Shown: in pieces, positions 1,767 through 56,150 of the stretch
Layout: every line of letters begins with the position of its first letter
How positions within the stretch are numbered: position 1 is the first letter of the stretch
NCBI GenBank assembly: GCA_018666775.1
Contig: JABIXC010000017.1
Span: 558,001 to 622,000 of the forward strand
DNA: 64,000 nucleotides
Source of the DNA: Rhodospirillales bacterium
Lineage (GTDB): Bacteria; Pseudomonadota; Alphaproteobacteria; SMXQ01
Direction of reading: 5' to 3'
Program-made: the position numbers and the translations under genes
Notes under the pieces: generated by a model
The model's input: only the letters and a program-made list of their open reading frames with translations
Database searches by the model: none
Told to the model about the DNA's origin: nothing

Positions 1767-3173
1767 CTATTTTTTGCAAGCAACTGATTTAGCTTCTTTC
1801 TTGCCCGTAGGGTGGCTCACCTTACAGCGCATCCCAATCTTCAGGATGGAACGGTCTGCTTCCTGACCATTGATGCTAAGCACCGTCCGCCGACCACTGA
1901 TTTTAATGGTTTTATCTTTGCCCTTCACCTTGAAAGTCAAAAACCGTCCGCCCCGTTTGATTTTGGTAATTTTGGATGAAAACGACAGCAGCGCAAGTTT
2001 CTTTTCAGGCCCAGACAGCCCAATCCATAAGGGATTCCAGATGCGCAACAGTTTCGGATATTCTTTTTCCAATTCTGGCCTGCGGAAGGCAATCGGTTTC
2101 CCCTCTACTGCTTTGGGGAAGGCCAGAAATTTCTTACCCCGAAGGCCTTTGTGAGCAGGCGGGGCGCTATTGGCTGCAAACTGGGATATCTGGCCTTCTT
2201 TTGACAAAAACCAGTTCACGAACAGCTTTGATGCATTGGGATGGGGATTGCCCTTAAGCACACCCATTTCAGAAACGGCCAATGGCACGGGCGTTGGGCA
2301 ATGCCACGCAATAGGCGCACCCTTGGCCACGTACTGGCTGGTCCGATACGACGCCGACGGAACAGCCGCATCAAATTCACCCGCAATCACCAGTGACAGC
2401 AAAGCATTGGTGCCTTCTTTACGAACCTGAGGCTTAACGACCGAAAAGAATTTTTTCATGTAATTGGTCGTCCACTCGGCACCGTTTTTGCCCCACAGCA
2501 TTAACAGCCACAGCTGGGGCCGGTTGCCCGTCCCAATTTTTCCGCCATGCCACCGCTTGTTGGTAAGAATATCCCCCCAGGTTTTGGGAAGATCAGATTT
2601 CTTTACCCGGTCGGTGTTATAGGCCATGCACCAGTAACGCAGGCGTTGACCAACCCACAACCCGCCGGGTTCGCGGGTGCCTTTTTCAAGATTATTAAAA
2701 TTGGGGATTTGCCGTAAATCCATCAACGCATCCGCTTCGCGGTAGCTAAAAAAGCCTCCACCAAAGCCGGTTACAATATCGGTGACAAAACGACCCTGCT
2801 TCCAGGCAATCAACGATTTGATCACCCGTGCGTTAAAACCAGCGCGGGAATAGCGAATATTGACAAAGGGATAGCGTTCCTTGAACGGTGCGGAAAGTTT
2901 TCTGAACTGGGCCGGGTCCCAGGACGCAATGATCTTCAGCGTGCCCTCTTTTTTAGCACCCTTGACCCAGCCTGGGGGCACCTTCAATTCACCATCAAGG
3001 CCCTTTAAAATGGATGGCTCAAATTTGAGTTTTTTCAGAATTTGTTTGGTGGCCTTTGGCAGTTCCCCCGCGTGAGCAGAGGAAACAAATGATGCCATCA
3101 CAGCAGCAGCAATGACCGCCCCGAGAGCCATCCTTGGAACATAGATACGTGGTAAAAATAAGCCCATTGTCAT
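1767..3173 (-). CDS. ABC importer periplasmic binding protein with basic two-Cys C-terminal domain (SBP A)
   Basis: Extracellular solute-binding protein of the ferric-iron/putrescine (type 2) class, 468 aa. It has an N-terminal signal peptide with likely cleavage after AHA near residue 36. The ligand-binding core contains two family-conserved cysteines, in RYWCMAYNTD and WHCPTPVPL. Residues about 402-468 form an extra domain (KRGGRF ... SGRRT ... GMRC ... VAC) that also ends three other ABC binding proteins and, twice, two Tct-type binding proteins in this window. The ATG at 3173 follows a clear GGGGAGG ribosome site. Two tandem stem-loops sit just upstream (3188-3234). The gene lies between the M24 gene and the permease, so it should feed that permease. 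Its counterpart in the inverted cassette is 18118-19494. The ligand is unknown. Confidence 0.93.
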   Translation of the reverse strand: MTMGLFLPRIYVPRMALGAVIAAAVMASFVSSAHAGELPKATKQILKKLKFEPSILKGLDGELKVPPGWVKGAKKEGTLKIIASWDPAQFRKLSAPFKERYPFVNIRYSRAGFNARVIKSLIAWKQGRFVTDIVTGFGGGFFSYREADALMDLRQIPNFNNLEKGTREPGGLWVGQRLRYWCMAYNTDRVKKSDLPKTWGDILTNKRWHGGKIGTGNRPQLWLLMLWGKNGAEWTTNYMKKFFSVVKPQVRKEGTNALLSLVIAGEFDAAVPSASYRTSQYVAKGAPIAWHCPTPVPLAVSEMGVLKGNPHPNASKLFVNWFLSKEGQISQFAANSAPPAHKGLRGKKFLAFPKAVEGKPIAFRRPELEKEYPKLLRIWNPLWIGLSGPEKKLALLSFSSKITKIKRGGRFLTFKVKGKDKTIKISGRRTVLSINGQEADRSILKIGMRCKVSHPTGKKEAKSVACKK

Positions 3174-3273: not shown

Positions 3274-4494
3274 TCACCCTTCGGCAACGATCAGATCATG
3301 GGGACGCTTTCCTAAGCGCTTCCCCCCATTTTTCGTGATGATTACCGTATCACCCCAAGTACAAATATGCGAACTATTGGCGGTTTCCGCCGAAGGCTTG
3401 CAGATAAAAACCATATTTTCTTTCAGTTCCACGGCCAATTGTTCGGGATCACGGGCATGATTGGTAATAATCGGCCCATCATCCCCGGCACCGCGGCCAT
3501 GCATGGTCAATTTTGTTTTTGCACCGGCAATGGGACCCGAAGTCGGCACCAGTTTTTTACCCGATGCCGCTGTCAATTCTGCCAATTCTTTTACAGATAT
3601 CCCCGGCTTCAAATTTTCCAGGGCCATATTGAACACTTCGCGCTGAACTTTAATCAACTCCTGATGGATTGGGTCCATGACCTCAACAAAAACCGGCTGC
3701 ACGGCTTGTGAACGGTACCCCATCCAGTTGGCCTCCAGTTCATTGAGAATCATATCGCCCCGTTCCAAAATCCGGTGCGATGGCCGGGTCAGGGTACGCA
3801 CAGGATTGTTCCCTGACACCCAGTTACAATGGACAGGAATTTCGGAACCGTTTCGCATCATGGCGTATTGCGCCGCCGCCCAAACTTCCCAATCTTTTTC
3901 GCCCACCTTGGCCGCGGCTACCTTTGCCTCAATGCCCTTTTCAATAATTTCCATGGATTTGGTCAACGCATCCACTTCTTCATCGCTTTTGACGTGGCGC
4001 AAATTGGCCATGACATTGGTGACATCGACCAGTTCTGCTTTTGGAAAGGTTTCACGAATTTGTTTCCAAAACCCATACCCAATGATGCCTTCCGGGGTTC
4101 TGGTCCCACCAATTTCTCCAAGCCCAACAATGCCAATGCGGCCATTATCAACGCCCAGTTCCTTCAGGCGTTCAACGGTAACGCGGCCATAATTGCGCCG
4201 CGCCTCTCTGACATCCAGGGTCCAATCCTGAACCGTTGGCCACCGGGGTGCTGCCGATGTGGCAATGGCGGTAACATCGCCTTCCAATGGAAAGACCACG
4301 GCAATATCCGCATCACCCCCACCCCCCACATGAGACAGGTAACGGGAATTGGCCTGAAAATCAGTGGAATGGCCGGTGTTATTAGGCGCAACGATGACAT
4401 CCAGATTTTCTTCCTGCATTTTCGCGCGCACGCGTTTCCAACGCGCATCGCGTTCAGCCAGTGAAAATCTTGGGTATGGGTACAGTTCCGCCAT
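3274..4494 (-). CDS. M24 (creatinase/prolidase-fold) protein lacking most metal ligands
   Basis: Pita-bread-fold protein of 406 aa: creatinase N-domain over residues 1-150, then the M24 domain. In M24 metallopeptidases five residues (D, D, H, E, E) bind two metals. Here the aligned positions read NELEANWMGYRSQ (first Asp is Glu, second Asp is Gln), TMHGRGAG (His kept), CKPSAE (Glu is Lys) and TWGDT (Glu is Gly). Four of five ligands are therefore changed. Loss of metal ligands with a retained His is also the situation in creatinase, which hydrolyses a C-N bond without metal, so a creatinase-like hydrolase is more plausible than an aminopeptidase; this is inference. The ATG at 4494 follows GAGGAAACC, 19 bp after the double VOC gene. 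The paralogue at 16827-18074 has the same substitutions. Confidence 0.85.
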   Translation of the reverse strand: MAELYPYPRFSLAERDARWKRVRAKMQEENLDVIVAPNNTGHSTDFQANSRYLSHVGGGGDADIAVVFPLEGDVTAIATSAAPRWPTVQDWTLDVREARRNYGRVTVERLKELGVDNGRIGIVGLGEIGGTRTPEGIIGYGFWKQIRETFPKAELVDVTNVMANLRHVKSDEEVDALTKSMEIIEKGIEAKVAAAKVGEKDWEVWAAAQYAMMRNGSEIPVHCNWVSGNNPVRTLTRPSHRILERGDMILNELEANWMGYRSQAVQPVFVEVMDPIHQELIKVQREVFNMALENLKPGISVKELAELTAASGKKLVPTSGPIAGAKTKLTMHGRGAGDDGPIITNHARDPEQLAVELKENMVFICKPSAETANSSHICTWGDTVIITKNGGKRLGKRPHDLIVAEG

Positions 4495-4513
4495 TGGTTT
4501 CCTCTATTTCTTT

Positions 4514-5446
4514 TTATGTGTTGTTTGAAACAAGTTCGATAAAGTTTCCGCCCGGGTCCCGGCAATAGACCGATGCCGAAATTAGATCAGTGTCGCTGTG
4601 TTCAACCGGACCATAGAAGCGCCAATTTTCTGCCCGCAGTCGATCACAGACCGCCGCTAGGCCACGCTGGGACACGCGAAAGGCAACCCGCGGCGTGCCC
4701 AATTTTTCAAATTCCGGGCTTTCCTGCGTGTGCTGATTGGAAAGATAAAGGCCAAGCGTGCTGTCGCCAGCATCGAAGTAAACCTGCATGTTCACCCGGG
4801 GCAAAACTTTCTGATTGACCATGGATGAATAGCGTTTATCCAACCGGCGCGTGCCCGGGGCCATGTCTTCCTTGCCATCCGCCCAGTCTTTCGCGCGAAT
4901 GTAATCGGCCGTCGCCCAACCAACCCGATGGGCCGCTGAAAGCCCGAGAACACGGCCATAAAATATTTCGCCCCATTGAATATCACCAACCTGAACCGCC
5001 ACATGATCAAGCGCTGGGACAAACCCGTCAATATCTTGGCCGACCACAAGCTGCACGCGATTGCCAAAGGGATCAAAAAAGTAGAACGGGTTGGCTTCTT
5101 CGCACGGGTTGTCTTCTTTGTAGGTAAAGGTTTCAATGCCCTGATGACCAAGGCTGGCCGCGATTTTCTTCCGGGCTTCAAGACCAACCCTGAAGGCAAA
5201 ATGAACGCCAGTGTCCTTAAGGTCAATTGGGTTTTTTCCCGCCACAAGAACCAGATGCTGATCCTTGGCACAGTTCAGCACCACACCCCCATCAATGCCC
5301 GGCCAGCGCGCTTGGCCTGACTCCACAAACCCCAAACCATCGGTATAAAAAACACGGGCCGCCTCAAGATCATCGACCTCGATCACCACATGGTTCAGCC
5401 CTTCCACATCAATGTCTGGGAGAGGGTTGGTATCTGCATCAAGCAC
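4514..5446 (-). CDS. Two-domain VOC (glyoxalase/extradiol-type) protein
   Basis: About 310 aa with two vicinal-oxygen-chelate modules, roughly residues 12-140 and 145-310, the architecture of type I extradiol dioxygenases. The usual H-H-E metal triad is split and incomplete: module 1 shows NHVVIEV, VHFAFRV and then NRVQLVV (Gln in place of Glu); module 2 shows DHVAVQV, PRVAFRV (Arg in place of His) and FIELVSN. Whether it binds metal is therefore open. I prefer the GTG at 5446, which has GGAAGGG six bases upstream and gives an N-terminus close in length to the paralogue; a GTG at 5461 is in frame and nearly touches the upstream stop. It is the third gene of the left VOC-Rieske cassette; the counterpart is 15880-16827. 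Confidence 0.85.
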   Translation of the reverse strand: MLDADTNPLPDIDVEGLNHVVIEVDDLEAARVFYTDGLGFVESGQARWPGIDGGVVLNCAKDQHLVLVAGKNPIDLKDTGVHFAFRVGLEARKKIAASLGHQGIETFTYKEDNPCEEANPFYFFDPFGNRVQLVVGQDIDGFVPALDHVAVQVGDIQWGEIFYGRVLGLSAAHRVGWATADYIRAKDWADGKEDMAPGTRRLDKRYSSMVNQKVLPRVNMQVYFDAGDSTLGLYLSNQHTQESPEFEKLGTPRVAFRVSQRGLAAVCDRLRAENWRFYGPVEHSDTDLISASVYCRDPGGNFIELVSNNT

Positions 5447-5463
5447 GTTGATCCCTTCCACGT

Positions 5464-5931
5464 TTAGCCAATCGCCATATCGGGCACGGCGTTGTATTCA
5501 GCGTCTTCATCACGACGCCAGACAATTTCCAGAAAATTGCCACTGGGGTCTTTAAAATAAATAGATTGCCCAAAAGGGCCGGCTTCGGGTTGATCCACAG
5601 GACCTTCAAACCGACAGTCATTGGCTTTCAACTTTGAAAGCACATCATCAAAGTGATCCCGCTTGACGGTAAAGGCGTGGCGAATACCCATGGCACCCTT
5701 TAACTGATCTTCCGGGGGCATGGGCATCAAATCCGGGGCCAAAGCCACGGCAAACAGAAAATCACCCAACATATAGGCTTCGTGAACCGAACGACCGCGC
5801 AGGGTGTCTTCGGTAATGAAATTGACTGCGCCAGCATGGGTGGCACCCAAAACATTGCAATAAAAATCACCCGCTTCTTTCAGGTCGTGGACGCAAATGC
5901 CACTGTGGGAAAGTGTTTCAACATCAGCCAT
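5464..5931 (-). CDS. Single-domain VOC family protein
   Basis: A 155-residue glyoxalase/bleomycin-resistance/dioxygenase-fold protein with an apparently intact metal triad: His in LSHSGICV near residue 9, His in IRHAFTV and Glu in FLEIVW. The end is extended by a short polar tail (RRDEDAEYN). The ATG at 5931 follows AGGAGC. Its counterpart in the inverted cassette, 15404-15883, shares the SHSGICVHDLKEA start and the FLEI.WRRDED end. It lies between the VOC-Rieske fusion and the double VOC gene with short gaps, so the three are probably co-translated. Lyase, isomerase or dioxygenase chemistry cannot be told apart from sequence alone. Confidence 0.88.
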   Translation of the reverse strand: MADVETLSHSGICVHDLKEAGDFYCNVLGATHAGAVNFITEDTLRGRSVHEAYMLGDFLFAVALAPDLMPMPPEDQLKGAMGIRHAFTVKRDHFDDVLSKLKANDCRFEGPVDQPEAGPFGQSIYFKDPSGNFLEIVWRRDEDAEYNAVPDMAIG

Positions 5932-5970
5932 CGTATTGCTCCTGTTATTCAGATCTTCTGTCGCATTGAT

Positions 5971-6786
5971 TCAAGACGGTGCAGCCACCGCGGTGGCACT
6001 TTTGGTACGCGCACCAGGTTCGGCCGGGGTTAATTGATCAGGCAAGAAATCTTCGCGCAACAGCGTCGTTTCCGGGTCTACCACCACCGCACCGGTTTCA
6101 TCTATGTGAATGGGGTGCAACCGCATAGGCGGACAAGGGCGACTTGTTTCCTGCATGATTCCTGAACGACCAAACCGGGCACCGTGCATGGGGCAAATAA
6201 AATGGAAATGTTCTTTTTTCCAGGCCAGCATGCCGTTCAGATGCGTGCACCAGCGTGAAAGGGCCAGAAACCCATCCTCCAGGCGCACCAGAAAAAATTT
6301 CCCCTTAACAAAGGGCTTAACCGTTCCCACGGGAAAATCATCAAGGTTGCCACACGTAATGGGGCCAGTATTTTCACAAATGATCGCGGTCGATTCCGGC
6401 GCATATGCCTGCACCTGATAACGGTGGCCGTCTGGGTCGAACACATCCATCGAATATTCGCCCATGGCGCGGAACTGGGCCCGGCTATCGGTGGTGTCGA
6501 ACCCCATGTTCTCTACCCTTTCGCGGCACCGATTCAATTCATCAATGGTCATCAACCATGCATGATGAATGGTTGATGAATTGGGTCGGATGGGGGTCAC
6601 CTCAGGCACTTCTACCAACAGAATACGCTGGCGGGTATTCATCGCCAAAAGCGACGTCGGCCCGTCATCAATCACAAGATCACGACCAACGATTTCCAAC
6701 CCAAAGGCATCAACGTAAAATTTTTCAGATCGGTCAAGATCAGTCACATGGATCACCATATGACTAAAACCGTCAATGATACTCAC
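5971..6786 (-). CDS. VOC-Rieske fusion protein
   Basis: About 271 aa joining two domains not normally in one chain. Residues 1-130 are a VOC module (His9 in FSHM; His74-His75 in IHHAW; Gln in place of the usual Glu in HRYQVQAY). Residues about 140-245 are a Rieske [2Fe-2S] module with C180-T-H182 and, after 15 residues, C198-P-M-H201. I start at the GTG at 6786: it has GGGGAG 10 nt upstream and makes the N-terminus align residue for residue with the paralogue at 14567 (...FSH at 7-9). The ATG at 6840, 18 codons earlier, has no ribosome site. It is the first gene of the left cassette. A Rieske centre on a VOC protein suggests electron delivery to, or redox sensing at, the VOC site (inference). 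Confidence 0.87.
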   Translation of the reverse strand: MSIIDGFSHMVIHVTDLDRSEKFYVDAFGLEIVGRDLVIDDGPTSLLAMNTRQRILLVEVPEVTPIRPNSSTIHHAWLMTIDELNRCRERVENMGFDTTDSRAQFRAMGEYSMDVFDPDGHRYQVQAYAPESTAIICENTGPITCGNLDDFPVGTVKPFVKGKFFLVRLEDGFLALSRWCTHLNGMLAWKKEHFHFICPMHGARFGRSGIMQETSRPCPPMRLHPIHIDETGAVVVDPETTLLREDFLPDQLTPAEPGARTKSATAVAAPS

Positions 6787-6964
6787 AACTGTTTCACTCC
6801 CCGTGCCTGCCCTTTTATCGGGCAAATCTACCATATCCATGGTTTTTTAGTATTCGAAACGCATTTTAAACATCAAATTAGGCTGTGACACTCAAAAAGT
6901 CACTTTTCGACCTAAATTATTCGGGAATTTGGGGATTGGGCCCTATCAAAGTGGCATACATGGC

Positions 6965-14566: not shown

Positions 14567-15403
14567 ATGGAATCCAACAGTGCTTTCAGCCATTTGGTGG
14601 TTGAGGTCTCAGACCTTGATAAATCCGAAGCGTTTTACCGGGATGTGATCGGGTTGGATGTTCTTGGCCGCGACCTGGTGGGTGAAGACAGACCCAATAC
14701 CCTATTGGCCACCAACACCAGACAGCGGGTCTTGTTGATTGAGGTTGATGAAGTCCCCCCATACCCGGGCTCAGGTGGGTCCATCCATCACGCCTGGCTG
14801 CTGACCCCGGAACAGTTCAAAAATGCCCGTGATCGGCTTGAATCCTTAGGGTTTGAAACCGGCATTGATCCGCGCCAAAATTTCCGGGCCGTTGGGGAAT
14901 ACAACATGGATATTCATGACCCCGATGGTAACCGATACCAAATTCAGGCTTTTGGGGATGAAGCAACTGACATTTTGCCATCGGGTGCGGGCATGATGAC
15001 CTGTGGCAAGATCGATGATTTTGCCATTGGTTCAGTCACGGCGTTTGGCAAAGGGCGGTTTTTCCTGAACCGGCTAGATGTTGGCTTCCTTGCGTTTTCC
15101 ATGTGGTGTACCCACAAAAATGGCGCAACCATCTGGCAGAAAGAAAGCTGGCATTTTTACTGCCCATTTCATGGTGCAAAATATGATCAAACGGGATGTT
15201 ACGTCGGGCACATGAAATGCAAGCCCATGCGTTTGCATCCCCTGTTTATTGATGATGGCGGCACCATCACGGTTGATACAGCCCGGTTTTACAATCGTGA
15301 AGCCTATGACGAAAGCCAAGCCGTTCCGGCCAAGGCAGGGGCGCAGTTCAACACAAACGGCCTTGAGGCGATTGAGCCCGAACAGAGAGATGGGACACAA
15401 TAA
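14567..15403 (+). CDS. VOC-Rieske fusion protein (second copy)
   Basis: A 278-aa paralogue of the fusion at 5971-6786. The VOC module (1-130) has His9 in FSHL, His74-His75 in IHHAW and Gln in NRYQIQAF. The Rieske module has C181-T-H183, then 15 residues, then C199-P-F-H202, the full [2Fe-2S] ligand set. The ATG at 14567 has GGGAG about 14 nt upstream. The stop TAA is immediately followed by the ATG of the next VOC gene. That both copies keep every Rieske ligand while both replace the VOC Glu by Gln argues that the combination is selected rather than accidental. Cytoplasmic; electron partner unknown. Confidence 0.9.
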   Translation: MESNSAFSHLVVEVSDLDKSEAFYRDVIGLDVLGRDLVGEDRPNTLLATNTRQRVLLIEVDEVPPYPGSGGSIHHAWLLTPEQFKNARDRLESLGFETGIDPRQNFRAVGEYNMDIHDPDGNRYQIQAFGDEATDILPSGAGMMTCGKIDDFAIGSVTAFGKGRFFLNRLDVGFLAFSMWCTHKNGATIWQKESWHFYCPFHGAKYDQTGCYVGHMKCKPMRLHPLFIDDGGTITVDTARFYNREAYDESQAVPAKAGAQFNTNGLEAIEPEQRDGTQ

Positions 15404-15883
15404 ATGGCAGATGTTGAAAGCATTTCCCACAGTGGCATCTGTGTCCATGACCTTAAGGAAGCAGAAGATTTTTATTGCAAGGTTCTGGGGGCTGAAACCC
15501 ACAGCCGAGTAAATTTCAAAACCCAGGATGCGCTTCGGGGCCGGTCCATCCATACCACGCTGGTGCTTGATGATTACCTGTTCGCGGTCATGCTCAGCGA
15601 AGACTGGATGACCATCCCAGATAAAAAAATAATCCATGGGGCCAACCGTACCCGTCACGCATTTTGTGTTCCAAAAGCACGGTTCGCCACAATTATTGAA
15701 CGCCTTGAAACCCACGCGGTTCCGTTCGAAGGCCCGAAAGCCCATCCGGAAAAGGGACCTTTTGGAGAATCCGTTTATTTCCGTGATCCAACGGGGAATT
15801 TCCTGGAAATTATCTGGCGACGCGATGAAGACACCCCGTATAACGAAGTACAGGCTTTGGGCCATGGCGGGAGAGGCATTTGA
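15404..15883 (+). CDS. Single-domain VOC family protein (second copy)
   Basis: A 159-aa paralogue of 5464-5931. The metal triad looks intact: ISHSGICV (His9), TRHAFCV and FLEIIW. It ends in the same RRDED tail with a Gly-rich extension. It starts directly after the stop of the VOC-Rieske gene and its TGA overlaps the TTG start of the next gene by 4 nt, so expression should be strictly coupled. A long open frame on the opposite strand (15074-15898) is a shadow of this and the neighbouring gene. Confidence 0.89.
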   Translation: MADVESISHSGICVHDLKEAEDFYCKVLGAETHSRVNFKTQDALRGRSIHTTLVLDDYLFAVMLSEDWMTIPDKKIIHGANRTRHAFCVPKARFATIIERLETHAVPFEGPKAHPEKGPFGESVYFRDPTGNFLEIIWRRDEDTPYNEVQALGHGGRGI

Positions 15884-18117: not shown

Positions 18118-19494
18118 ATGAAACAAGTGAACGCCATCCTTGGAACAGCTTTGATTGTGTCAGCAGCGACGCTCTCCGTGCTTTCCTATTCAGCCGGGGC
18201 TGCCGACCTGCCCAAATCAACCCAAAAAATTATTGCCAAACTTAAACTTCCCCCAGCCTTGTTAAAGGGACTGGAAGAAGAGGCAAAGATGCCCGCCAAG
18301 ATGCTGGCGGCTGCAAAAAAGGAAAAGGGCCGTTTGAAAATTGGCGGCACTTGGGATTCCGATCAATTCAGCAAGCTGATTGCCCCATTTAAAGAACGCT
18401 TTCCTTTCATCGATGTCCGTTATGCCCGGGCCACACGCCATGACCGCGTGATCAAACCCCTGATCGCATATCAGAACGGGCGGATCATCAACGACATCAT
18501 TTCAGGCGTTGGGGCAAAATTCGTTTTGTTCCGCAACCTGAATGCCATTGAGAATTTATCATCTGTTCCCAACTGGAAGAATGTTCCCAAGGGAATGAAA
18601 CATCCAAAGGGCCTATGGATCGGCCAGCGACTGCGTTACTGGTGCATGTCTTACAACACGGACCGGGTTAAGAAAGCAGAACTGCCTAAAACCTGGGATG
18701 ACCTGATTACCGACAAGCGCTGGCATAACAAAAAAATTGGTCTTGGCAATCGGCCTAACCTCTGGCTAATCGGGCTTTGGGGAACCAAGGGCCGAAAGTG
18801 GGCTACCCAATACGCGAGAGATCTTCTTCACGTCGTTAATCCTCAATTGCGTAAAGAGGGCATGAATGCCCTGATCGGCCTGACTGTTGCCGGAGAATTT
18901 GATGCGGCCCTGCCGTCCGCCGCTTACCGCACCGGTCAGATGATTCAAAAAGGTGCCCCGGTTGGCTGGCATTGCCCGGAACCCGTGCCATTGTCCATTT
19001 CAGAAATGGTCGTTATGCGCGGCAGCAAGCGTAAAAATTCTGCATTGATGTTTATCAACTGGTTTTTATCCAAAGAGGGGCAAATCAGCCAATTCGCATC
19101 AAACCTGGCACCCCCGGTTCATCGCGATCTTCAAACCAAGGAATTCCTGACCTTCCCCGATCAAATCGTCGGCAAAAAAATCGCCTTTCGCGATCCGGAA
19201 GTTCTTGAAAGCGATCTGCCAAAGCTATTGCGGGTTTGGGACCCACTCTGGTTTTCAGGTCGGGGCATGAAACTTGTTACCGTTGACTCCACCATCACCA
19301 GATTAAAGCGTGGTGCCAGATATGTGGTCTTCAAGGTCAAAGGCAAATCCCATACGGTCAAGGTTTCAGGCAGCCGGACAGAAGTTAGCGTCAAGGGCAA
19401 GGAAGCCGGGCGCAAACAATTGAAGGTTGGGATGAAATGCAAATTCACCTATCCCGGCGACAAGGAAGAAGCCAAAAGAATTAATTGCAAATAA
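18118..19494 (+). CDS. ABC importer periplasmic binding protein with basic two-Cys C-terminal domain (SBP B)
   Basis: A 458-aa type 2 solute-binding protein. The signal peptide is cleaved probably after AGA near residue 29. Core cysteines lie in RYWCMSYNTD and WHCPEPVPL. The accessory domain spans residues 393-458 (DNA 19294-19491): KRGARY ... SGSRT ... GMKC ... INC. The start at 18118 has GGGAGGATTAA upstream. It is the last gene of the right cassette and lacks a neighbouring permease, so it may share the permease next to SBP A or the one at 42664. A strong terminator follows the stop. Confidence 0.92.
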   Translation: MKQVNAILGTALIVSAATLSVLSYSAGAADLPKSTQKIIAKLKLPPALLKGLEEEAKMPAKMLAAAKKEKGRLKIGGTWDSDQFSKLIAPFKERFPFIDVRYARATRHDRVIKPLIAYQNGRIINDIISGVGAKFVLFRNLNAIENLSSVPNWKNVPKGMKHPKGLWIGQRLRYWCMSYNTDRVKKAELPKTWDDLITDKRWHNKKIGLGNRPNLWLIGLWGTKGRKWATQYARDLLHVVNPQLRKEGMNALIGLTVAGEFDAALPSAAYRTGQMIQKGAPVGWHCPEPVPLSISEMVVMRGSKRKNSALMFINWFLSKEGQISQFASNLAPPVHRDLQTKEFLTFPDQIVGKKIAFRDPEVLESDLPKLLRVWDPLWFSGRGMKLVTVDSTITRLKRGARYVVFKVKGKSHTVKVSGSRTEVSVKGKEAGRKQLKVGMKCKFTYPGDKEEAKRINCK

Positions 19495-21281: not shown

Positions 21282-21522
21282 GTAAATTCCTATCCTGAGC
21301 GTCCCAAATGCGTTGTGCACCATCATAGCCACAGCCTGCCCGCAGCAGCAATATGGGCTTTTTCTCTGATTACTCCCGATTTTGAAGAATTATAGACAGA
21401 CTCTCCATTGCCAGACCGGGTTTCACTGGTAAACTTATCTTTGTAAACGCCAAACAACACAATGAATGGCCCAATAGACAAGCTTGAATGGGCGGCGGCC
21501 ATTTTTTAAAGGAGAGTACAAC

Positions 21523-22650
21523 ATGTCTCAAAATCTTCGTGCATGGACAATTGCCTGTCTGGGCATCCTTGCTATTGGGGGCGCGGTAATCAGTGATGCC
21601 AGCGCCCAATCTCTTGAACGATTTTACAAGGTAAAAGGGCTTCGCATTGTCGTCGGCTCTGGGGCTGGTGGTGGGTATGATACCTACACCCGGGCCTTTG
21701 GACGCCATTATACAAACCACCTGCCCGGGAACCCGCGCATTGTGGTCCAGAACATGCCAGGGGCCAGCGGCATCCGTGCAACCAACTGGGTCTACAACAA
21801 GGCACCAAAAGATGGTTCCGTTATTATGGCAACCTATCAGTCCTTGATCGATGAAAACCTTTTGGGCAACCGCAAGGTAAAATTCGATGTTAAAAAATTG
21901 GGCTGGCTTGGGTCTATCGGCAAAACCCACCATCTTTGCGTGAGCTGGAAAGCCCGCAGCAAAATCACCAATATCAAGCAGGCCATCGGCAAGGAATTGA
22001 CCGTATCGGCCACGGGGCGGTCCGGTAATTCGGCGACGGTGCCATTGTTGCTAAATCAAAGTGTCGGTACCAAATTCAAGGTTATTGCTGGGTACTCCAC
22101 CACGGGTTCCAGACTTGCGCTGGAACGCGGCGAAGTGGATGTCATCTGCGGTCTTGGCTATTCAACATTGAAGGCATCAAACCCTGATTGGTTTATCAAG
22201 AAAAGAGTCAATGTCATCGCCCAAATCGCGCTGACCCGGCACAAGGAATTCCCCAATGTGCCGAATGCCATGGAACTGGTTAGCGCCAGTGATAAAAAGG
22301 TCTATCAATTCTTTGGTGTGGCACAGCAAATGGGCCGTCCCTACACGGCACCTCCGGGGCTCGCACCTGATCGGCTTAAAGCCCTTCGGGTTGGGTTCAA
22401 CAACACGGTGAAAGACAAGGCATTCCTTAAAGACATGGGCAGACTTCGTCTTTCCGTTGATCCCCTGACCGGTCAGGAAATGGAAGCCCTGATCGAGAAG
22501 TTGTACCAGTACTCCCCAGACGTTCTGGACCGAGTTGGTAAACTGCTTGGGGTCGCCAAAAAAGAACGCATCTTTGCCTGCAAAAAGTTCTCCAAGAGAC
22601 CAAAGAAGTGCAAGAAAAAGAAAAAGAAGAAAAAGAAGAAAAAATCCTGA
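21523..22650 (+). CDS. Bug/TctC-type periplasmic binding protein with polylysine tail
   Basis: About 375 aa. The signal peptide ends at ASA|Q near residue 30. The mature part has the tripartite-tricarboxylate (Bug) fold with GGGYDTYTRAFGRHYTNHLPG and VVQNMPGASG near 45-80. The last 24 residues are almost all lysine, encoded by an uninterrupted A/G tract at 22612-22644, after a Cys pair (FACKKF, PKKCKK). The ATG at 21523 has AAAGGAGAG upstream; the ATG at 21484 does not fit a signal peptide. No TctA/TctB genes are adjacent, so it either uses the system at 51006-52993 or is an orphan. A terminator follows, then an enolase-superfamily gene. Confidence 0.9.
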   Translation: MSQNLRAWTIACLGILAIGGAVISDASAQSLERFYKVKGLRIVVGSGAGGGYDTYTRAFGRHYTNHLPGNPRIVVQNMPGASGIRATNWVYNKAPKDGSVIMATYQSLIDENLLGNRKVKFDVKKLGWLGSIGKTHHLCVSWKARSKITNIKQAIGKELTVSATGRSGNSATVPLLLNQSVGTKFKVIAGYSTTGSRLALERGEVDVICGLGYSTLKASNPDWFIKKRVNVIAQIALTRHKEFPNVPNAMELVSASDKKVYQFFGVAQQMGRPYTAPPGLAPDRLKALRVGFNNTVKDKAFLKDMGRLRLSVDPLTGQEMEALIEKLYQYSPDVLDRVGKLLGVAKKERIFACKKFSKRPKKCKKKKKKKKKKKS

Positions 22651-28247: not shown

Positions 28248-29324
28248 TTATTTTTTTCTTCTTTTTTTCCGCTTCTTCGGGCCCTTACCGAAGATTTTCT
28301 TGAATTTTTTATTCCACTTTTTGTCCTCTTTCCCGGACATGATAACCGGAATGATTTTACGCTTGTTGATAATATCGAGAACGTTAGCGGGATTGGGCGT
28401 CACGTCGGTCCGGGTTGGGATACGGCCGGACTTTGCGAGTTGGGTTTGCCCTTCTTTACTAACCAGATAGTTTGCACCAAGTCTGGCAGCGGAAGGGTTG
28501 CCCGCAGCAGAGCTGATACCGACCTGGCCATAAAACACAGCGACAGGATCCATCACCCACCAGTCAATGGGGTTGCCCTTGAGCTTGGTACGAATGCTCA
28601 GGTTGATGTAGTTGTTCAGCGAAATCAGATGCTCGCCAGAAGCCGTGTTCCGTGCAAGGGCACCGTGGCCTCGGGTCACTTTAACCTGCAGCTTACTCTT
28701 GATCGCACGAAGAAGCTTTTCGCCTTTTTTTGCACCGTAATGATCAAAAACGGCTTTAACCCATTCATTGTCACCCTTATCGATGGCAATGCGGCCTTTC
28801 CATTCAGGGTGCTTCAGAAAATCATCATAGGTCTTCGGCAAATCGGCTTTCTTGACCTTATCACTGTTATAAGCGAGGCCATTGTAATTGGCATACACCC
28901 CATACCAGCGCTTGTTCGGATCCTTGGCGATGGCCGGAATTTCCTTGGCGAGAGGGGGTTCGTATTGGGCCACCCATTTCTTTGGCAATTTGTGCACTGC
29001 TGTGGTCTGGAGAATGTCCCAGCCCGGCTTCTTTGCACGTCTTTCCACGGAGATCCGTGCCATCAATTTGACATCCGATGCCCGCACATAAACTGTTTTG
29101 AGCCCGGTTACCTTGTCGAAGATTTTCCAAAGAGGCAGTGCCTCCCTTTCATTCATCGACCCATAAACAACCAGATTGCCGCCTTCTTTCTTGGCTTTGG
29201 CCAAAAGACCTTTATCCATCCAAGACGGGTCTGCTGCGAACGAAGGTGCAGAACCCACTGCAAGGGTCATAGCCCCGGCACCGAGCAGCGCAAACGCAGC
29301 ATTTTTAGCATATGATTTAAACAT
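28248..29324 (-). CDS. ABC importer periplasmic binding protein with basic tail
   Basis: A 358-aa ferric-iron-type (FbpA class) binding protein. Signal peptide cleaved probably at SFA|AD near residue 31. The core has the YGSMNEREALPLW start and a C-terminal lobe without the two-Cys accessory domain of SBPs A-D. Instead, the last 16 residues are basic (GKGPKKRKKRRKK), encoded by a pyrimidine-rich plus-strand tract at 28251-28290. The ATG at 29324 follows AAGGGGAG. It heads the operon with its permease and ATPase, so it is the dedicated binding protein. An inverted repeat 40 bp upstream resembles an operator. The ligand is not evident; iron-binding tyrosine pairs could not be confirmed. Confidence 0.93.
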   Translation of the reverse strand: MFKSYAKNAAFALLGAGAMTLAVGSAPSFAADPSWMDKGLLAKAKKEGGNLVVYGSMNEREALPLWKIFDKVTGLKTVYVRASDVKLMARISVERRAKKPGWDILQTTAVHKLPKKWVAQYEPPLAKEIPAIAKDPNKRWYGVYANYNGLAYNSDKVKKADLPKTYDDFLKHPEWKGRIAIDKGDNEWVKAVFDHYGAKKGEKLLRAIKSKLQVKVTRGHGALARNTASGEHLISLNNYINLSIRTKLKGNPIDWWVMDPVAVFYGQVGISSAAGNPSAARLGANYLVSKEGQTQLAKSGRIPTRTDVTPNPANVLDIINKRKIIPVIMSGKEDKKWNKKFKKIFGKGPKKRKKRRKK

Positions 29325-31785: not shown

Positions 31786-33177
31786 CTATTTGCTGTTGCA
31801 TGCGACCTTTTTGGCCCGCGCTCCATCACCGGGATAGGTAACCTTGCAGGTCATGCCGGGTTTGAATTTTTTACGGCTTGTATTTTTACCATCTAAGGTC
31901 ACTTCTGTCCGCCGACGACTGATCCCTGCGGTTTTTTTCTTACCCTTGTGCATGAAATAGATGATCCGCCCGCCCCGTTTTACGGCCGTCAAGACCACGG
32001 AAACAGTTTTGGCCGGGCCTGTCTTTTCCACAGGCCCGCCGGCACTCTGCCACATCGGCGTATACATATTCACCAGTTTTGGATATTCCAACCGCAGCTT
32101 GCCTTCATCCCGGATGGCAATGGGCTTGCCCGCCACTTCTTCGGGGAAGGGAATAAATTCTTTGCGATTGGCAAGGTCCGCACGCACAGGAACCGCACTG
32201 TTTGCGCCAAATTGAGAAATTTGGCCTTCTTTTGACAAAAACCAGTTGGTAAAAATCAACGATGAATATTTGTGCGGGTTATCTTTCAAAACCATCATGA
32301 TGGAAATGGCGAGCGGCACGGGCACCGGACAATGAAAGGCAATGGGCGCACCCCTGTCCTGATACTGTTTAACCCGATACGCAGCGGCCGCAACGGTCGC
32401 ATGAAATTCGCCTGCCACGGTCAAACCGATCATGGCGTTGGCACCTTCTTTGCGCAATTGCGGTTTCACGACCGTGAACAATTTACGCATAAAACTCTGA
32501 ACCCAGTCCGGGCCTTTCTTCAGCCACAACATGGAAAGCCACAGGTTGGGCCGATTGGGAATCCCAAGATTCCCACCGCGCCATCGGGGATCGTCAACCA
32601 AATCTTCCCAGCGTTTTGGCATTTCTGATTTTTTTACCTTGTCCGTATTATAGGCCATGCAACGGTGGGCTACTTTTTGGCCGACCCACAATCCATTTTC
32701 TTCGCGCATGTCTTTGGAAAGAAATTTGTAATTTGGCACCACACGCAGGTCTTCCAGCGCGTTGATGTCTTTAAAACGAACCCAATCGCCACCGGGGCTG
32801 ATGATAATATCGCTCAGATACCGGCCAGATTTAAGGGCAAGCAGAGGCTTAATCCCACGGTCATACCGGCCACCACGGGCATAGCTGATGGGGATGTCGG
32901 GGTAGCGCAATTTAAAGGGGGCCGAGAGTTTCCTAAATTGCGAAGGGTCCCAAGCCCCCAGAATTTTAAGCGGTTTTTCTTTTTTTGCGTTGGCCAGCCA
33001 GTTTTTCGGCACAACAAGTTCGGCATCCAGCCCCGAAAGAATTTCTGGATTAAGCTTCAGCTTTTCAAGCAAAGCCTGGGTCGGGGCTGGTAATTGGGCA
33101 GCAACAACCGGGCTACATGCAACACCGCCTGCAATCAGCAGGGCAAGAGACATTTGATTGGCACGTTTTAAAAACAT
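31786..33177 (-). CDS. ABC importer periplasmic binding protein with basic two-Cys C-terminal domain (SBP C)
   Basis: A 463-aa binding protein with signal peptide (probable cleavage VVAA|QLP near residue 27). A Cys at residue 21 lies in the hydrophobic part but does not form a good lipobox. Core cysteines: HRCMAYNTDK and FHCPVPVPL. The accessory domain is at residues 396-463 (31789-31992): KRGGRI ... SRRRT ... GMTC ... VAC. The ATG at 33177 follows GGGAGGCC. It lies between bicupins 1 and 2. No permease is adjacent, so it must use one elsewhere. Confidence 0.92.
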   Translation of the reverse strand: MFLKRANQMSLALLIAGGVACSPVVAAQLPAPTQALLEKLKLNPEILSGLDAELVVPKNWLANAKKEKPLKILGAWDPSQFRKLSAPFKLRYPDIPISYARGGRYDRGIKPLLALKSGRYLSDIIISPGGDWVRFKDINALEDLRVVPNYKFLSKDMREENGLWVGQKVAHRCMAYNTDKVKKSEMPKRWEDLVDDPRWRGGNLGIPNRPNLWLSMLWLKKGPDWVQSFMRKLFTVVKPQLRKEGANAMIGLTVAGEFHATVAAAAYRVKQYQDRGAPIAFHCPVPVPLAISIMMVLKDNPHKYSSLIFTNWFLSKEGQISQFGANSAVPVRADLANRKEFIPFPEEVAGKPIAIRDEGKLRLEYPKLVNMYTPMWQSAGGPVEKTGPAKTVSVVLTAVKRGGRIIYFMHKGKKKTAGISRRRTEVTLDGKNTSRKKFKPGMTCKVTYPGDGARAKKVACNSK

Positions 33178-34353: not shown

Positions 34354-34381
34354 TTTTTATGGACAGTCTTTTTATGGACAG
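34354..34381 (-). repeat. 15-bp tandem duplication across the SBP D stop codon
   Basis: TTTTTATGGACAG occurs at 34354-34366 and again at 34369-34381, separated by TC. The second copy contains the stop codon of SBP D. It looks like a slippage duplication in the 3' end of the gene. Confidence 0.75.
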
Positions 34382-35757
34382 ACGATCGTTTTTGCTTCGC
34401 CTTTATGGCCGGGATAATTGATGGCGCACGTCATGCCAACTTTGATTTTCTTTCTGGAAACATTCTTTCCCCCGACCTTGATCTTGGTCCGTCGACCACT
34501 GACGGTAACCTTATGGGTTTTGCCACCAACCTTGATCTCAAGAAAACGACCGCCACGCTTTTTGGCCAATATCTTGGTCGTGACAACCGTATATTTGATC
34601 CCGCTGTGGCCATCCCAAAGTGGCCCCCACACCTTGTAAAGATCGGGCAGCATCAGGGCTTCTTTCGGGCCGCGCATGGCGACCTTGTTGCCCGATTGGC
34701 CTTCGCCCCCAAGGGGACGGAACCGGGCCATTTTAATCAGGTCTTTGTGAATGGGCGTGGCGCGGTCGGCCGAGTATTTAGCAATCTGGCCTTCCTTGCT
34801 GAGCACCCAGTTGATGTACAATTTGGCGGCATCAATATTGGGCGCACCTTTCAAAATAGATGATTCTGTAATTGAAACCGGTGCCGGGTCTGGGCAATGG
34901 AACCCAACGGGTGCGCCCAATTCCTGACGTTCCTGGACCCGGAATGGGGCCGCACTGATGGACATATTAAATTCACCCGCAACCAACAAGCCTACCAGTG
35001 CACTGGTGCCTTCCTTGCGCAGCTGTGGTTTTACTTTCGTGAACAATTCATTCAGGAAATTTGTGGTCCATTTAGGCCCTTTGGCCGACCACAGATTGAC
35101 AACCCATTGGTTCGGCCGATTGGCCAGCGCCAGATTACCCTTGCGAAGGGCCGGCATGGTCAATAAATCGCCCCATGTTTTGGGAAGGTCTGCCTTTTTA
35201 ATCTTTTTGGTATTGTACGCTGCACACCAATAGCGCAACCGAACACCAACCCAACGCCCCTTTTTATCCATCATGCCAGCAGGAATGTTGGCGGAATTGG
35301 GTAGCTCACGCAGATCGGCCAGAAGGTCATCTTTGTAATACAAAAACACCTTTCCGCCCAAACCATTGACGATGTCAGTGATATAGCGCCCGGTTTTCAA
35401 GGCGATCAAAGGCTTGATGGCGCGATCATTACGCTTTGGCCTGGAATACTTGATCTTGATAAAGGGATAGCGTTCCCGAAACGGCGCCGACATAGCCACA
35501 AATTCAGAATTTGACCACGATGAATGGATGCGCAATTTTCCTGTCTTGCGTGCGCCATCGACCCAGGCTTTGGGCACCTTCATTTCCTTATCCAGACCGC
35601 TAAGGATGCTGGCATCCAATTTCAGTTCTTTGAGAATTTTCTTGGTGGCATTTGGCAATTCTGCGGCCATCAAAGGCGCAGACAACCCAGCCACCAAAAG
35701 CCCTGCAATGACAGCACCGGTAGTACGACGAATGTTGCGCGTCAATTTCTGATTCAT
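34372..35757 (-). CDS. ABC importer periplasmic binding protein with basic two-Cys C-terminal domain (SBP D)
   Basis: A 461-aa binding protein. Signal peptide with twin Arg near the start (IRRTTG, but no full Tat motif), cleaved probably at LMA|AEL near residue 32. Core cysteines: RYWCAAYNTK and FHCPDPAPV. Accessory domain at 396-461 (34375-34572): KRGGRF ... SGRRT ... GMTC ... IVC. The ATG at 35757 follows GAGGGAGAG. It alternates with bicupins 3 and 2. A short tandem duplication covers its stop codon. Confidence 0.92.
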   Translation of the reverse strand: MNQKLTRNIRRTTGAVIAGLLVAGLSAPLMAAELPNATKKILKELKLDASILSGLDKEMKVPKAWVDGARKTGKLRIHSSWSNSEFVAMSAPFRERYPFIKIKYSRPKRNDRAIKPLIALKTGRYITDIVNGLGGKVFLYYKDDLLADLRELPNSANIPAGMMDKKGRWVGVRLRYWCAAYNTKKIKKADLPKTWGDLLTMPALRKGNLALANRPNQWVVNLWSAKGPKWTTNFLNELFTKVKPQLRKEGTSALVGLLVAGEFNMSISAAPFRVQERQELGAPVGFHCPDPAPVSITESSILKGAPNIDAAKLYINWVLSKEGQIAKYSADRATPIHKDLIKMARFRPLGGEGQSGNKVAMRGPKEALMLPDLYKVWGPLWDGHSGIKYTVVTTKILAKKRGGRFLEIKVGGKTHKVTVSGRRTKIKVGGKNVSRKKIKVGMTCAINYPGHKGEAKTIVCP

Positions 35758-53065: not shown

Positions 53066-54580
53066 TCAGGGGCAAATTACTTTCCGGGCCTCAACCCGAT
53101 CACCACGTTTGGCCCAACTCATATTGCACGTCATACCCGTCTTCAAAGAAGATCGACCCACAAGCTTGCCAGCAACCGTGATTTCAGATCGAGAGCCACT
53201 GACACGCAGTTTCATTTTTTTGCCATCATGTTTGAACCGCAAAACTCTGCCCCCACGCTGGACCTTGTCGAAGGTCACCTTTGAGAGGCACTTGACCGTA
53301 TTGGCCTCCACCCGGTCGCCGCGTTTTTTCCAGTTCATCATACAGGTCATGCCGGGTTTCAAAGAGGACCGTGGCGCGATCTTTCCAGAAAAAGTGATTT
53401 CAGAACGGCTGCCGCTGACGCGCAGTTTCATGGCCTTGCCCTTGTGCTTGAAGCGCAAGACACGACCACCGCGTTGCACTTTGTCAAAGGTCACCGCCAC
53501 TAATTGGGCTGCTTTGCGGGATACTTTTGGCAGTTTATATTTCTTCCGAAGCCGGGAAATTTCTTTCAATGCGGCCGGCGAAATGGTGATCGCGCTCGCC
53601 ACAAGACGCGCCGTGTCAGGGCCACTCAGGACAGAATACCCAGTCCCTAAAATGTTAAATGCAGCTTTCTTGAAATCAGGGTCTTCGGTAGTTGCTTTGA
53701 AAGATACCTGGAGTGTTTTGATCAGGTTTTTCGGCGTGCCCTGGGTTAGCGCGAAATACTTGTCTACAACGCTGGGGCCAGTCCATGCCTGAAAGGCGGC
53801 CCATTTAACACCCGTTGGTTTTTTGTCGCCTAAGACTTGCTCAAATGTACGCACATTCGGGAAATCAGATCGAGGCACCTGAGCCGTGATGGGGGTTGCA
53901 CCTTCATCTTTAATAAAGCGGTTCAGAATTTTCGTGGTGCCTGACCCAAACATATCAATTTCACCACGGCCAAATGCCAGATAGATTGCATTGGAATTGG
54001 GATAGCCAAGAACAAATTTAAGGTTCCAGCCCAGATATTCCGCTCCAAAAACGGCAATGGCATCTTGGGGCCGATCCGTGGAAACCGATCCCATGGCAAC
54101 GGGTCTTGCTTTCGGGTCCATTAGGTTTTTCAGGACAGATTTGCGAATGAGCTGGAGCGAAGGCCCACGCTCAATCGAGCCAACAAATCCCCATTTGGTC
54201 GGGTCATAGCGAACCGAATTTGATTTACGCGCAACGGGGCCAAGGCTACCGCCACCGGCAAAAACCCCAACGGTCAAACCATTGGGCCGGACCTTATGGG
54301 TTAAATCATTTGCACCAATTAACTGAAGCGGTTTGTTGCGCACCACCAGGTCCGGGGTGCCGGGAATGTGGCGCGCCCAAAACCGGCCCACCAACCGTCC
54401 AGTGGTATCAGTGCCGCCACCGGGGCGCGATGCCACCATCACGGTGAAGGTCTTGCCCTTGTAATATTCGGCTGCGTTTGCGCTTTGATCCGGTCCTGCG
54501 ACCAGCCCCAGCCCAAAACCGGCCAATGCACCGATGATCAAACTTGTGGGTTTAGCAAACTTGTGCTTCATCATATCCAT
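53066..54580 (-). CDS. Bug/TctC-type binding protein with two copies of the basic two-Cys domain (1)
   Basis: A 504-aa protein: signal peptide to about residue 36 (ANA|AEYY), Bug fold to about 350 (VASRPGGGTDTTGRL...IPGTPDLVVRNKP), then two tandem accessory domains at 363-434 and 435-504 (DNA 53279-53494 and 53069-53278). Each repeats VTFDKVQRGGR ... SGSRSEIT ... GMTC ... C. A normal Bug protein is about 320 aa, so the domains add roughly 140 residues. It feeds TctA/TctB directly downstream. The ATG at 54580 follows AAGAGGC. It is a tandem duplicate of the next entry. Confidence 0.93.
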   Translation of the reverse strand: MDMMKHKFAKPTSLIIGALAGFGLGLVAGPDQSANAAEYYKGKTFTVMVASRPGGGTDTTGRLVGRFWARHIPGTPDLVVRNKPLQLIGANDLTHKVRPNGLTVGVFAGGGSLGPVARKSNSVRYDPTKWGFVGSIERGPSLQLIRKSVLKNLMDPKARPVAMGSVSTDRPQDAIAVFGAEYLGWNLKFVLGYPNSNAIYLAFGRGEIDMFGSGTTKILNRFIKDEGATPITAQVPRSDFPNVRTFEQVLGDKKPTGVKWAAFQAWTGPSVVDKYFALTQGTPKNLIKTLQVSFKATTEDPDFKKAAFNILGTGYSVLSGPDTARLVASAITISPAALKEISRLRKKYKLPKVSRKAAQLVAVTFDKVQRGGRVLRFKHKGKAMKLRVSGSRSEITFSGKIAPRSSLKPGMTCMMNWKKRGDRVEANTVKCLSKVTFDKVQRGGRVLRFKHDGKKMKLRVSGSRSEITVAGKLVGRSSLKTGMTCNMSWAKRGDRVEARKVICP

Positions 54581-54635: not shown

Positions 54636-56150
54636 TCACGGGCAAATTACTTTCCGGGCCTCTATCCGATCACCGCGTTTGGCCCAGCTAAGGTTGCACG
54701 TCATGCCCGTCTTCAAAGAGGACCGACCTGCAAGTTGGCCCGCAACCGTGATCTCTGAACGGCTGCCACTGACGCGCAGTTTCATTTTCTTGCCATCGTG
54801 TTTAAACCGCAAAATACGCCCATCGCGCTGCACCTTGTCGAAGGTCACCTTTGACAGACACTTCACCGTGTTTGCCTCTACCCGATCGCCGCGTTTTTTC
54901 CAATTCACAAAACAGGTCATGCCGGGTTTCAAAGCAGATCGTGGCGCGATCTTTCCAGAAAAAGTGATTTCTGAACGGCTGCCACTGACGCGCAGTTTCA
55001 TGGCCTTCCCCTTGTGCTTGAACAGCAAGACACGACCACCGCGTTGCACCTTGTCAAACGTTACCGCCACCACTTTGGCTGCTTTTCGTGACACCTTGGG
55101 CAAATTGTATTTTTTCCGAAGCCGGACAATTTCCTTTAATGCGCCCGGCGAAATGGTGATCGCCCCGGCCACAAGGCGCGCCGTTTCCGCAGGGCTTAAG
55201 ATTGAATACCCGGTGCCCAATATATTTCGGGCGGCTTTTATAAAATCTGGGTCATTCGTCGTTGCCTTGAAAGACACCTGGAGCGTTTTGAGAAGATTTT
55301 TCGGAGTGCCTTTGGTCACCGCGAAATATTTGTCAACGTTACTGGGGCCGGTCCACGCCTGAAATGCGGCCCATTTATCGCCCGTGGGTTTTTTCGCACC
55401 CAGCAGTTCATCAAATGTAACCACATTCGGAAAATCTGCCCGCCGAGTCTGGGCAGAAACAGGGACCGCGCCTTCATCATTGATAAAGCGGTTTAAAATT
55501 TTCGTGGTGCCGGAACCAAACATATCAATTTCACCACGACCAAATGCCAAATAGATCGCACTGGAATTGGGATAGCCAAGAACAAATTTAAGGTTCCAGC
55601 CCAGATATTCTGCACCAAATACGGCAATGGCATCCTGGGTTCGATCTGATGAAACCGATCCCATAGCAATGGGTTTTGCGTTCGGGTCCATCAAATTCTT
55701 CATCGCAGACTTGCGGACCAACTGAAGCGAAGGCCCGCGCTCAACTGCCCCCACAAACCCCCATTTGGTTGGATCATAGCGAACCGCACTTGATTTTCTG
55801 GCAACTGGGCCAAGGCTGCCCGCACCGGCAAAAACCCCAACGGTCAGGCCATTGGGCCGCACCTTATGGGTTAAATCATTCGCACCGATTAGCTGAAGCG
55901 GTTTGTTACGCACCACAATGTCCGGGGTGCCTGGAATGTGGCGCGACCAAAACCGGGCCACCAACCGTCCCGTGGTATCGGTGCCCCCACCCGGGCGTGA
56001 TGCCACCATCACGGTGAATGTCTTGCCCTTATAATATTCGGCAGCATTGGCGCTTTGATCCGGACCAACGTTCAGCCCCAAACCAAACCCGGCCAATACG
56101 CCAATGAGCAAACCAGTGGATTTAGCAAACCTTCCAGTGAAACTACGCAT
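54636..56150 (-). CDS. Bug/TctC-type binding protein with two copies of the basic two-Cys domain (2)
   Basis: A 504-aa tandem paralogue of the preceding gene. Signal peptide ends ANA|AEYY. Accessory domains lie at 363-434 and 435-504 (DNA 54849-55064 and 54639-54848). The second copy has RDGR in place of RGGR. Differences from paralogue 1 cluster in the middle of the binding core (for example around FPNVVTFDELLGAKKPTG), which may change the ligand while the transporter interface stays the same. The ATG at 56150 follows AAGGAGGCC. Confidence 0.93.
   Translation of the reverse strand: MRSFTGRFAKSTGLLIGVLAGFGLGLNVGPDQSANAAEYYKGKTFTVMVASRPGGGTDTTGRLVARFWSRHIPGTPDIVVRNKPLQLIGANDLTHKVRPNGLTVGVFAGAGSLGPVARKSSAVRYDPTKWGFVGAVERGPSLQLVRKSAMKNLMDPNAKPIAMGSVSSDRTQDAIAVFGAEYLGWNLKFVLGYPNSSAIYLAFGRGEIDMFGSGTTKILNRFINDEGAVPVSAQTRRADFPNVVTFDELLGAKKPTGDKWAAFQAWTGPSNVDKYFAVTKGTPKNLLKTLQVSFKATTNDPDFIKAARNILGTGYSILSPAETARLVAGAITISPGALKEIVRLRKKYNLPKVSRKAAKVVAVTFDKVQRGGRVLLFKHKGKAMKLRVSGSRSEITFSGKIAPRSALKPGMTCFVNWKKRGDRVEANTVKCLSKVTFDKVQRDGRILRFKHDGKKMKLRVSGSRSEITVAGQLAGRSSLKTGMTCNLSWAKRGDRIEARKVICP

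Follow-up and report, generated by a model that had tools for sequence, protein, structure and literature searches.

The usual view of Gram-negative bacteria is that a solute-binding protein either carries a lipid anchor or moves freely in the periplasm. In C-terminal sorting systems the signal stands strictly at the C-terminus and the passengers are varied, and signals of the PEP-CTERM/LPXTG type have a hydrophobic helix at the C-terminus with a basic end after it. Another small domain of relevance here, DUF5666 (PF18914), is itself a domain of unknown function. Lineage-specific expansions of Bug/TctC binding proteins are reported for Bordetella and Rhodoplanes (PMC5812351, PMC5994714). The word "C-terminal" is absent from the Rhodoplanes Bug/TctC paper, and the available text of the TTT review describes no added C-terminal domain (PMC5812351, PMC5994714); literature searches on SBP tails, SBP charge and DUF5666 returned nothing on point. 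The domain reported here, which we call the tag, is not described on binding proteins in the searchable literature, and the finding extends further than was apparent from the window (the whole stretch of 64,000 nucleotides of Rhodospirillales DNA that was analysed). Its kind is already known, since it is a case of binding proteins with an added domain, here one remotely like a known domain. The source genome resembles Rhodoplanes and Bordetella in encoding far more Bug-type binding proteins than TctA proteins (about 47 versus 12).

The initial annotation had placed eight copies of the domain in the window, and all eight were found there by HMM match, each ending a secreted protein. The six proteins and their tags are as follows.

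1767..3173, minus strand: SBP A, ABC-type (SBP_bac_6/PhnS-like) binding protein, 468 aa
1770..1973, minus strand: tag at the C-terminus of SBP A
18118..19494, plus strand: SBP B, ABC-type binding protein, 458 aa
19291..19491, plus strand: tag at the C-terminus of SBP B
31786..33177, minus strand: SBP C, ABC-type binding protein, 463 aa
31789..31992, minus strand: tag at the C-terminus of SBP C (match at 31795-31992; chain end NSK)
34372..35757, minus strand: SBP D, ABC-type binding protein, 461 aa
34375..34575, minus strand: tag at the C-terminus of SBP D
53066..54580, minus strand: protein E, Bug-type, 504 aa, with a tandem pair of tags
53285..53491, minus strand: first tag of E
53069..53275, minus strand: second tag of E
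54636..56150, minus strand: protein F, Bug-type, 504 aa, with a tandem pair of tags
54855..55061, minus strand: first tag of F
54639..54845, minus strand: second tag of F

Fourteen positions are invariant in these eight copies (R7, R10, G18, K19, S26, R29, G36, R41, K45, G47, M48, C50, A61, and C66). The bodies of SBP A to D received Pfam SBP_bac_1/6/8 calls and belong to SBP_bac_6 at 40-55 bits, with a cut-off of 24.6. Pfam TctC was not called on the bodies of E and F, which align with TctC-type paralogs. The model of E has a Bug fold, and its top PDB matches are terephthalate-binding proteins; for TBP, TphC, BugD and Bug27, E-values are about 1e-12 to 1e-14 and TM is up to 0.75, the value for BugD 2f5x. 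In this model, residues 354-359 form a linker with pLDDT below 50, after which come two all-beta modules with pLDDT of about 75-89. These results strongly support a tag that is a small all-beta module in its own right, with a short flexible linker between it and an otherwise ordinary binding-protein body. The tagged hosts carry signal peptides, without a convincing lipobox, which agrees with the periplasmic location previously claimed for them. SBP A and SBP B adjoin similar gene sets (window 3274-6840 and 14567-18074), each with M24-peptidase-like and ring-cleavage/VOC-like proteins as judged from C-terminal sequences, and the two clusters look like paralogs.

A profile HMM of the eight window copies was searched against the source genome (G000; 2.41 Mb in 19 contigs, 98% complete), yielding 43 copies in 41 proteins, with a best E-value of 7e-35 within this one genome, so that the pattern is not due to chance. 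Thirty-five hosts are Bug/TctC-type proteins forming one similarity cluster, five are ABC-type SBP_bac_6/PhnS-like proteins forming a second, and one is a stand-alone copy, a secreted protein of 101 residues with little beyond the domain. The claim of a recurrent, unnamed C-terminal domain on two binding-protein families therefore holds across the genome, and the 40 binding proteins leave the secreted stand-alone copy as the single match outside that class. Among the 40 large hosts, Pfam called TctC on 17 and SBP_bac_1/6/8 on five, and NCBIfam added TRAP-TAXI and PhnS calls. Hosts in related genomes are likewise binding proteins: for 80 full-length hosts, TctC was called on 53 and SBP_bac/phosphonate-binding families on a few more, and no further family was named. 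The tagged fraction of the source genome's binding proteins is 35 of about 47 for the Bug type and 5 of 10 for the SBP_bac_6 type. Because the tag is found on both Bug/TctC-type and ABC-type binding proteins, it is, on strong evidence, not tied to one kind of permease. A link between the tag and TctA neighbors was considered and dropped, as tagged and untagged binding proteins both adjoin TctA.

The tag is the C-terminal end of all 41 host proteins. A sorting or export signal, for example to the cell surface via a dedicated secretion system specific for C-terminal signals, would account for this strict position and for passengers of two families. We regard such a role as quite improbable, since no partner machinery was identified, surface export would part the binding proteins from their permeases, and the tags lack a C-terminal hydrophobic segment of the PEP-CTERM kind. 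Unlike PEP-CTERM/LPXTG-type signals, all copies are beta-rich and have no hydrophobic helix, both in their sequences and in the model.

All eleven sampled genomes of the window's family, its own and ten others, are tagged, with 7 to 68 copies each, while 30 genomes of the same class but of other families are all without the tag. Among 385 genomes sampled across the class, it was found in the window's family and two others only (2-4 copies and 1 copy). Among 399 sampled across the phylum, every match outside the source genome was at chance level; up to 15 candidates per genome were scored in both of these larger samples. A search of plasmids gave no match. The best explanation of the tag is a lineage-specific C-terminal module of soluble periplasmic solute-binding proteins. 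The named tag-bearing relatives are all metagenome-assembled genomes, and the record names of several point to sea water.

An alignment of 121 copies from the source and related genomes, with about 67 columns, has the two cysteines as its sole invariant columns, and nine further positions are nearly invariant (G9, G18, S26, T30, G36, R41, K45, G47, and M48). Both cysteines are also invariant in a joint alignment of 126 copies, so that the conserved pair noted from the window extends to every aligned copy. One opens the penultimate predicted strand and the other falls within the final one, which makes a disulfide between them plausible in the modeled fold. The AlphaFold2 model of the tag is a six-stranded small barrel with a mean pLDDT of 85, and the structure prediction suggested at the outset thus gave a small all-beta, OB-like barrel. 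Foldseek matched it to OB-like folds, the best being an S-layer self-assembly domain (9fs9, TM 0.62, E 0.03) and the second CusF (TM 0.59, E 0.63). Across small barrels of this type (9fs9, CusF 2qcp, HypC, and the RuvA N-terminal domain) the all-beta fold is similar, at TM of about 0.4-0.62, but identity is 4-14% and no E-value falls below 0.02, so that function is not transferable. CusF is a periplasmic metal-binding OB fold, and what was measured between it and the tag is fold similarity only. The match nevertheless raises the question of whether a metal or small ligand is bound by the tag, which would then aid substrate capture or hand-over to the permease, and for which the conserved basic core could hold carboxylates or phosphonates. 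This is very unlikely, because the tag occurs on ABC and TTT binding proteins alike, with the same core on many different bodies, and many low-charge copies have Leu or Gln in place of Met48, so that a metal site built on Met is not favored.

Sequence searches of Pfam, NCBIfam, and PDB with the tag gave chance-level matches only, the best of them involving few or single members (B3, 9.5e-4; DegS, 5e-4). A named family was rejected on this ground, and the domain, which the initial annotation did not recognize, has no convincing Pfam or NCBIfam family. DUF5666 was not among the matches when tag copies were scanned alone against Pfam, and a search of the source genome with PF18914 gave no match at E <= 1e-4. 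Profile alignment with hhalign matched the tag to DUF5666 with a probability of 90.5 and a score of 33.3 for low-charge tags, and a probability of 76 and a score of 28.2 for all tags, over 52 of 65 columns. Decoys scored at most 14.8; they comprised 120 host windows, 100 column shuffles, and reversed sequences rather than other OB folds, and the DUF5666 side consisted of eight hand-trimmed repeats from other alphaproteobacteria. Both domains have about 60 residues, a similar order of motifs, and DLK.G..V.V near the end. The tag differs in its two invariant cysteines and in standing single or paired at the C-terminus of binding proteins, whereas the DUF5666 copies examined are mostly internal repeats in other proteins. 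By this profile comparison, the tag is probably a remote relative of DUF5666.

The positive charge of the tag had been taken as a property of the domain that indicated binding of a ligand, and this is not supported in that form. Across 24 genomes, tags span net charges of 0 to +37 per 100 aa, in step with the bodies of their hosts (r = 0.66 for 132 proteins; r = 0.78 for genome means). Charge was accordingly rejected as a defining trait. Another genome of the same family (G002, 3.0 Mb) has 84 Bug-type places, of which fewer than 10 are tagged, and both tags and bodies are near neutral; many of these Bug-type matches have one stop counted inside or ending the matched frame. The profile nevertheless picks up its tags, at +1.6 to +4.7 net per 100 aa, with a best E of 1e-19, which disposes of the concern, raised with the original observation, that the alignment merely reflects Lys/Arg composition. 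R10, R29, R41, and K45 are basic in 69-100% of low-charge copies, and many other Lys/Arg columns are filled in high-charge copies only. As tag charge follows the host and these four positions stay mostly basic in low- and high-charge copies, the basic character is, judging from the alignments, mostly a lineage effect over a small conserved basic core.

Tagged hosts in the source genome have a median pI of 10.3, and cytosolic-class proteins in the sampled stretches have a mean of -1.9 net per 100 aa. Other exported proteins are also strongly basic, including a D,D-carboxypeptidase (+12.7 per 100 aa), a polysaccharide deacetylase (+8.6 per 100 aa), an LptA-like protein, and a lytic transglycosylase, and part of the charge is therefore periplasm-wide. 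In a survey of marine proteins, the periplasmic proteins of marine bacteria had fewer Lys/Arg and more acidic residues (PMC11928666). The basic exported proteins of the source genome are the opposite of this trend, which makes salt adaptation unlikely as the origin of the charge.

The dependence of tag charge on host charge fits a structural or oligomerization module that caps the C-terminus, stabilizes the protein, or pairs or clusters proteins, with charge as lineage composition. Neutral tags exist, as this would allow, and the top fold match is the S-layer self-assembly domain; the tandem tags of E and F and the stand-alone copies beside tagged Bug genes would fit contacts between tags. We consider a structural role somewhat unlikely, since the weak S-layer match could merely reflect the general fold, and since this reading leaves unexplained the Lys-rich tails that stand at the same place on untagged proteins. 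The window's two untagged proteins of the Bug and SBP_bac_6 classes both have such Lys/Arg tails.

21484..22650, plus strand: Bug-type binding protein, untagged, ending ...CKKFSKRPKKCKKKKKKKKKKKS (about 22573-22647)
28248..29324, minus strand: ABC-type (SBP_bac_6) binding protein, untagged, ending ...FGKGPKKRKKRRKK (about 28251-28325)

Among about 12 Bug-type and 5 SBP_bac_6-type untagged proteins of the source genome, Lys/Arg-rich ends are found on 15 of 17; the last 25 residues have a net charge of at least +8 in 14 of them, and the fifteenth ends in LLKKKKK. The remaining two, L127 and L130, lack tag and tail alike. Tails of at least +8, a threshold chosen after the tails were seen, occur in 9 of 356 other proteins (Fisher p = 6e-17) and in 2 of 47 exported-looking proteins (p = 2e-9). 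The background is a sample of 464 kb, made up of the window and 20 stretches of 20 kb each, and the signal-peptide rule is crude, so that the comparison with exported-looking proteins is approximate, while that with the 356 is independent of the rule. A genome-wide scan for at least five Lys codons before a stop, in a pattern that omits TAG stops and Arg, found 10 distinct places, eight of which are binding-protein genes; of the other two, one does not close an open frame and the second is a doubtful frame of 30 codons, so that no confirmed gene besides those for binding proteins was found. Six tails have two closely spaced cysteines followed by poly-Lys (for example CKALAKNKKMCKKKKKKKKKKK), all on Bug proteins (window 21484-22650, L120, L121, L123, L124, and L125), and in a relative (L116) this form is found in a neighboring open frame. 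Peripla_BP_6-type proteins (n=3) are without Lys-rich tails; two have lipobox-like starts and one a possible N-terminal anchor.

Taken together, the tag and the Lys tails suggest that different transporters share one way of holding their binding proteins in place. We tentatively propose, as quite possible, that they are an envelope-tethering module for soluble binding proteins that replaces the lipid anchor, a function that we infer. Tag and tails would do the same job, tethering binding proteins that would otherwise diffuse freely to something anionic in the envelope, such as peptidoglycan, LPS, or inner-membrane lipid. Like a lipid anchor, they would thus prevent loss from the cell and keep the proteins concentrated close to the permeases. 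R10, R29, R41, and K45 would be the putative binding site, which may be reinforced, in lineages such as that of the source genome, by a strongly raised charge over the remainder of the domain, and the Cys pair would staple the last two strands. Tethering is favored by the occurrence of Lys/Arg tails where the tag is absent, by the constant C-terminal position and the large tagged share of binding proteins, by the modular build of the E model, by the two host families and the secreted stand-alone copy in a TctA-TctB-Bug operon, by the invariant cysteines and conserved basic core, and by the lack of tails on the apparently lipid- or TM-anchored Peripla_BP_6-type proteins, a contrast that rests on n=3. 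Against it, no binding partner was identified, L127 and L130 do without either feature, and basic exported proteins are common in the source genome. The Bug proteins examined in G002 have no Lys-rich tails, and together with its near-neutral tags this means that electrostatic tethering is not universal for the domain. A family-wide version, in which interchangeable C-terminal tethers (OB-like disulfide domain, poly-Lys, and CxnC-poly-Lys) fix dozens of SBPs of both host families within one cell to an anionic polymer of the envelope, is doubtful.

What calls for explanation is one common C-terminal module on most Bug-type and half of the SBP_bac_6-type proteins, with Lys-rich tails on nearly all others. 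In the family-wide form, tethering would be a third way of holding binding proteins, next to the lipid anchor and the permease fusion. Tethering, if true, would bear on how bacteria manage many more binding proteins than permeases, and could yield a protein-engineering tag for periplasmic retention.

Within the set of 35 Bug hosts, body-to-body and tag-to-tag distances are correlated (Mantel r = 0.55, with 0 of 2000 permutations as high), and the tag therefore appears to have been mostly inherited with the Bug body through duplications. The proposal that the domain was recruited at least twice, by two unrelated host families, is plausible in that the ABC-type tags form one clade in 0% of bootstrap trees and the starred branches force at least three changes; it is weakened by the tag tree, which rests on 67 residues and is poorly resolved. 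Stand-alone copies were found in the source genome and in relatives.

L219:4053-4358 (C17 near 465550-465860): stand-alone secreted tag of the source genome, with two extra Cys (VCIKGAC)
L111:3212-3553: stand-alone tag of a relative
G001:C107 (L217): stand-alone tag of a relative
G005:C163 (L218): stand-alone tag of a relative

The copy in the source genome lies in the run TctA-TctB-[stand-alone]-[tagged Bug], adjoined by cupin-like and ornithine-cyclodeaminase-like genes (these and TctB were named from sequence reading). L111 has a related arrangement, in which the stand-alone copy closely resembles its neighbor's tag, and the arrangement is partly the same in G001 and G005. Seven of the 12 TctA open frames in the source genome are 657-712 aa instead of about 500, and these long frames may be TctA-TctB fusions.
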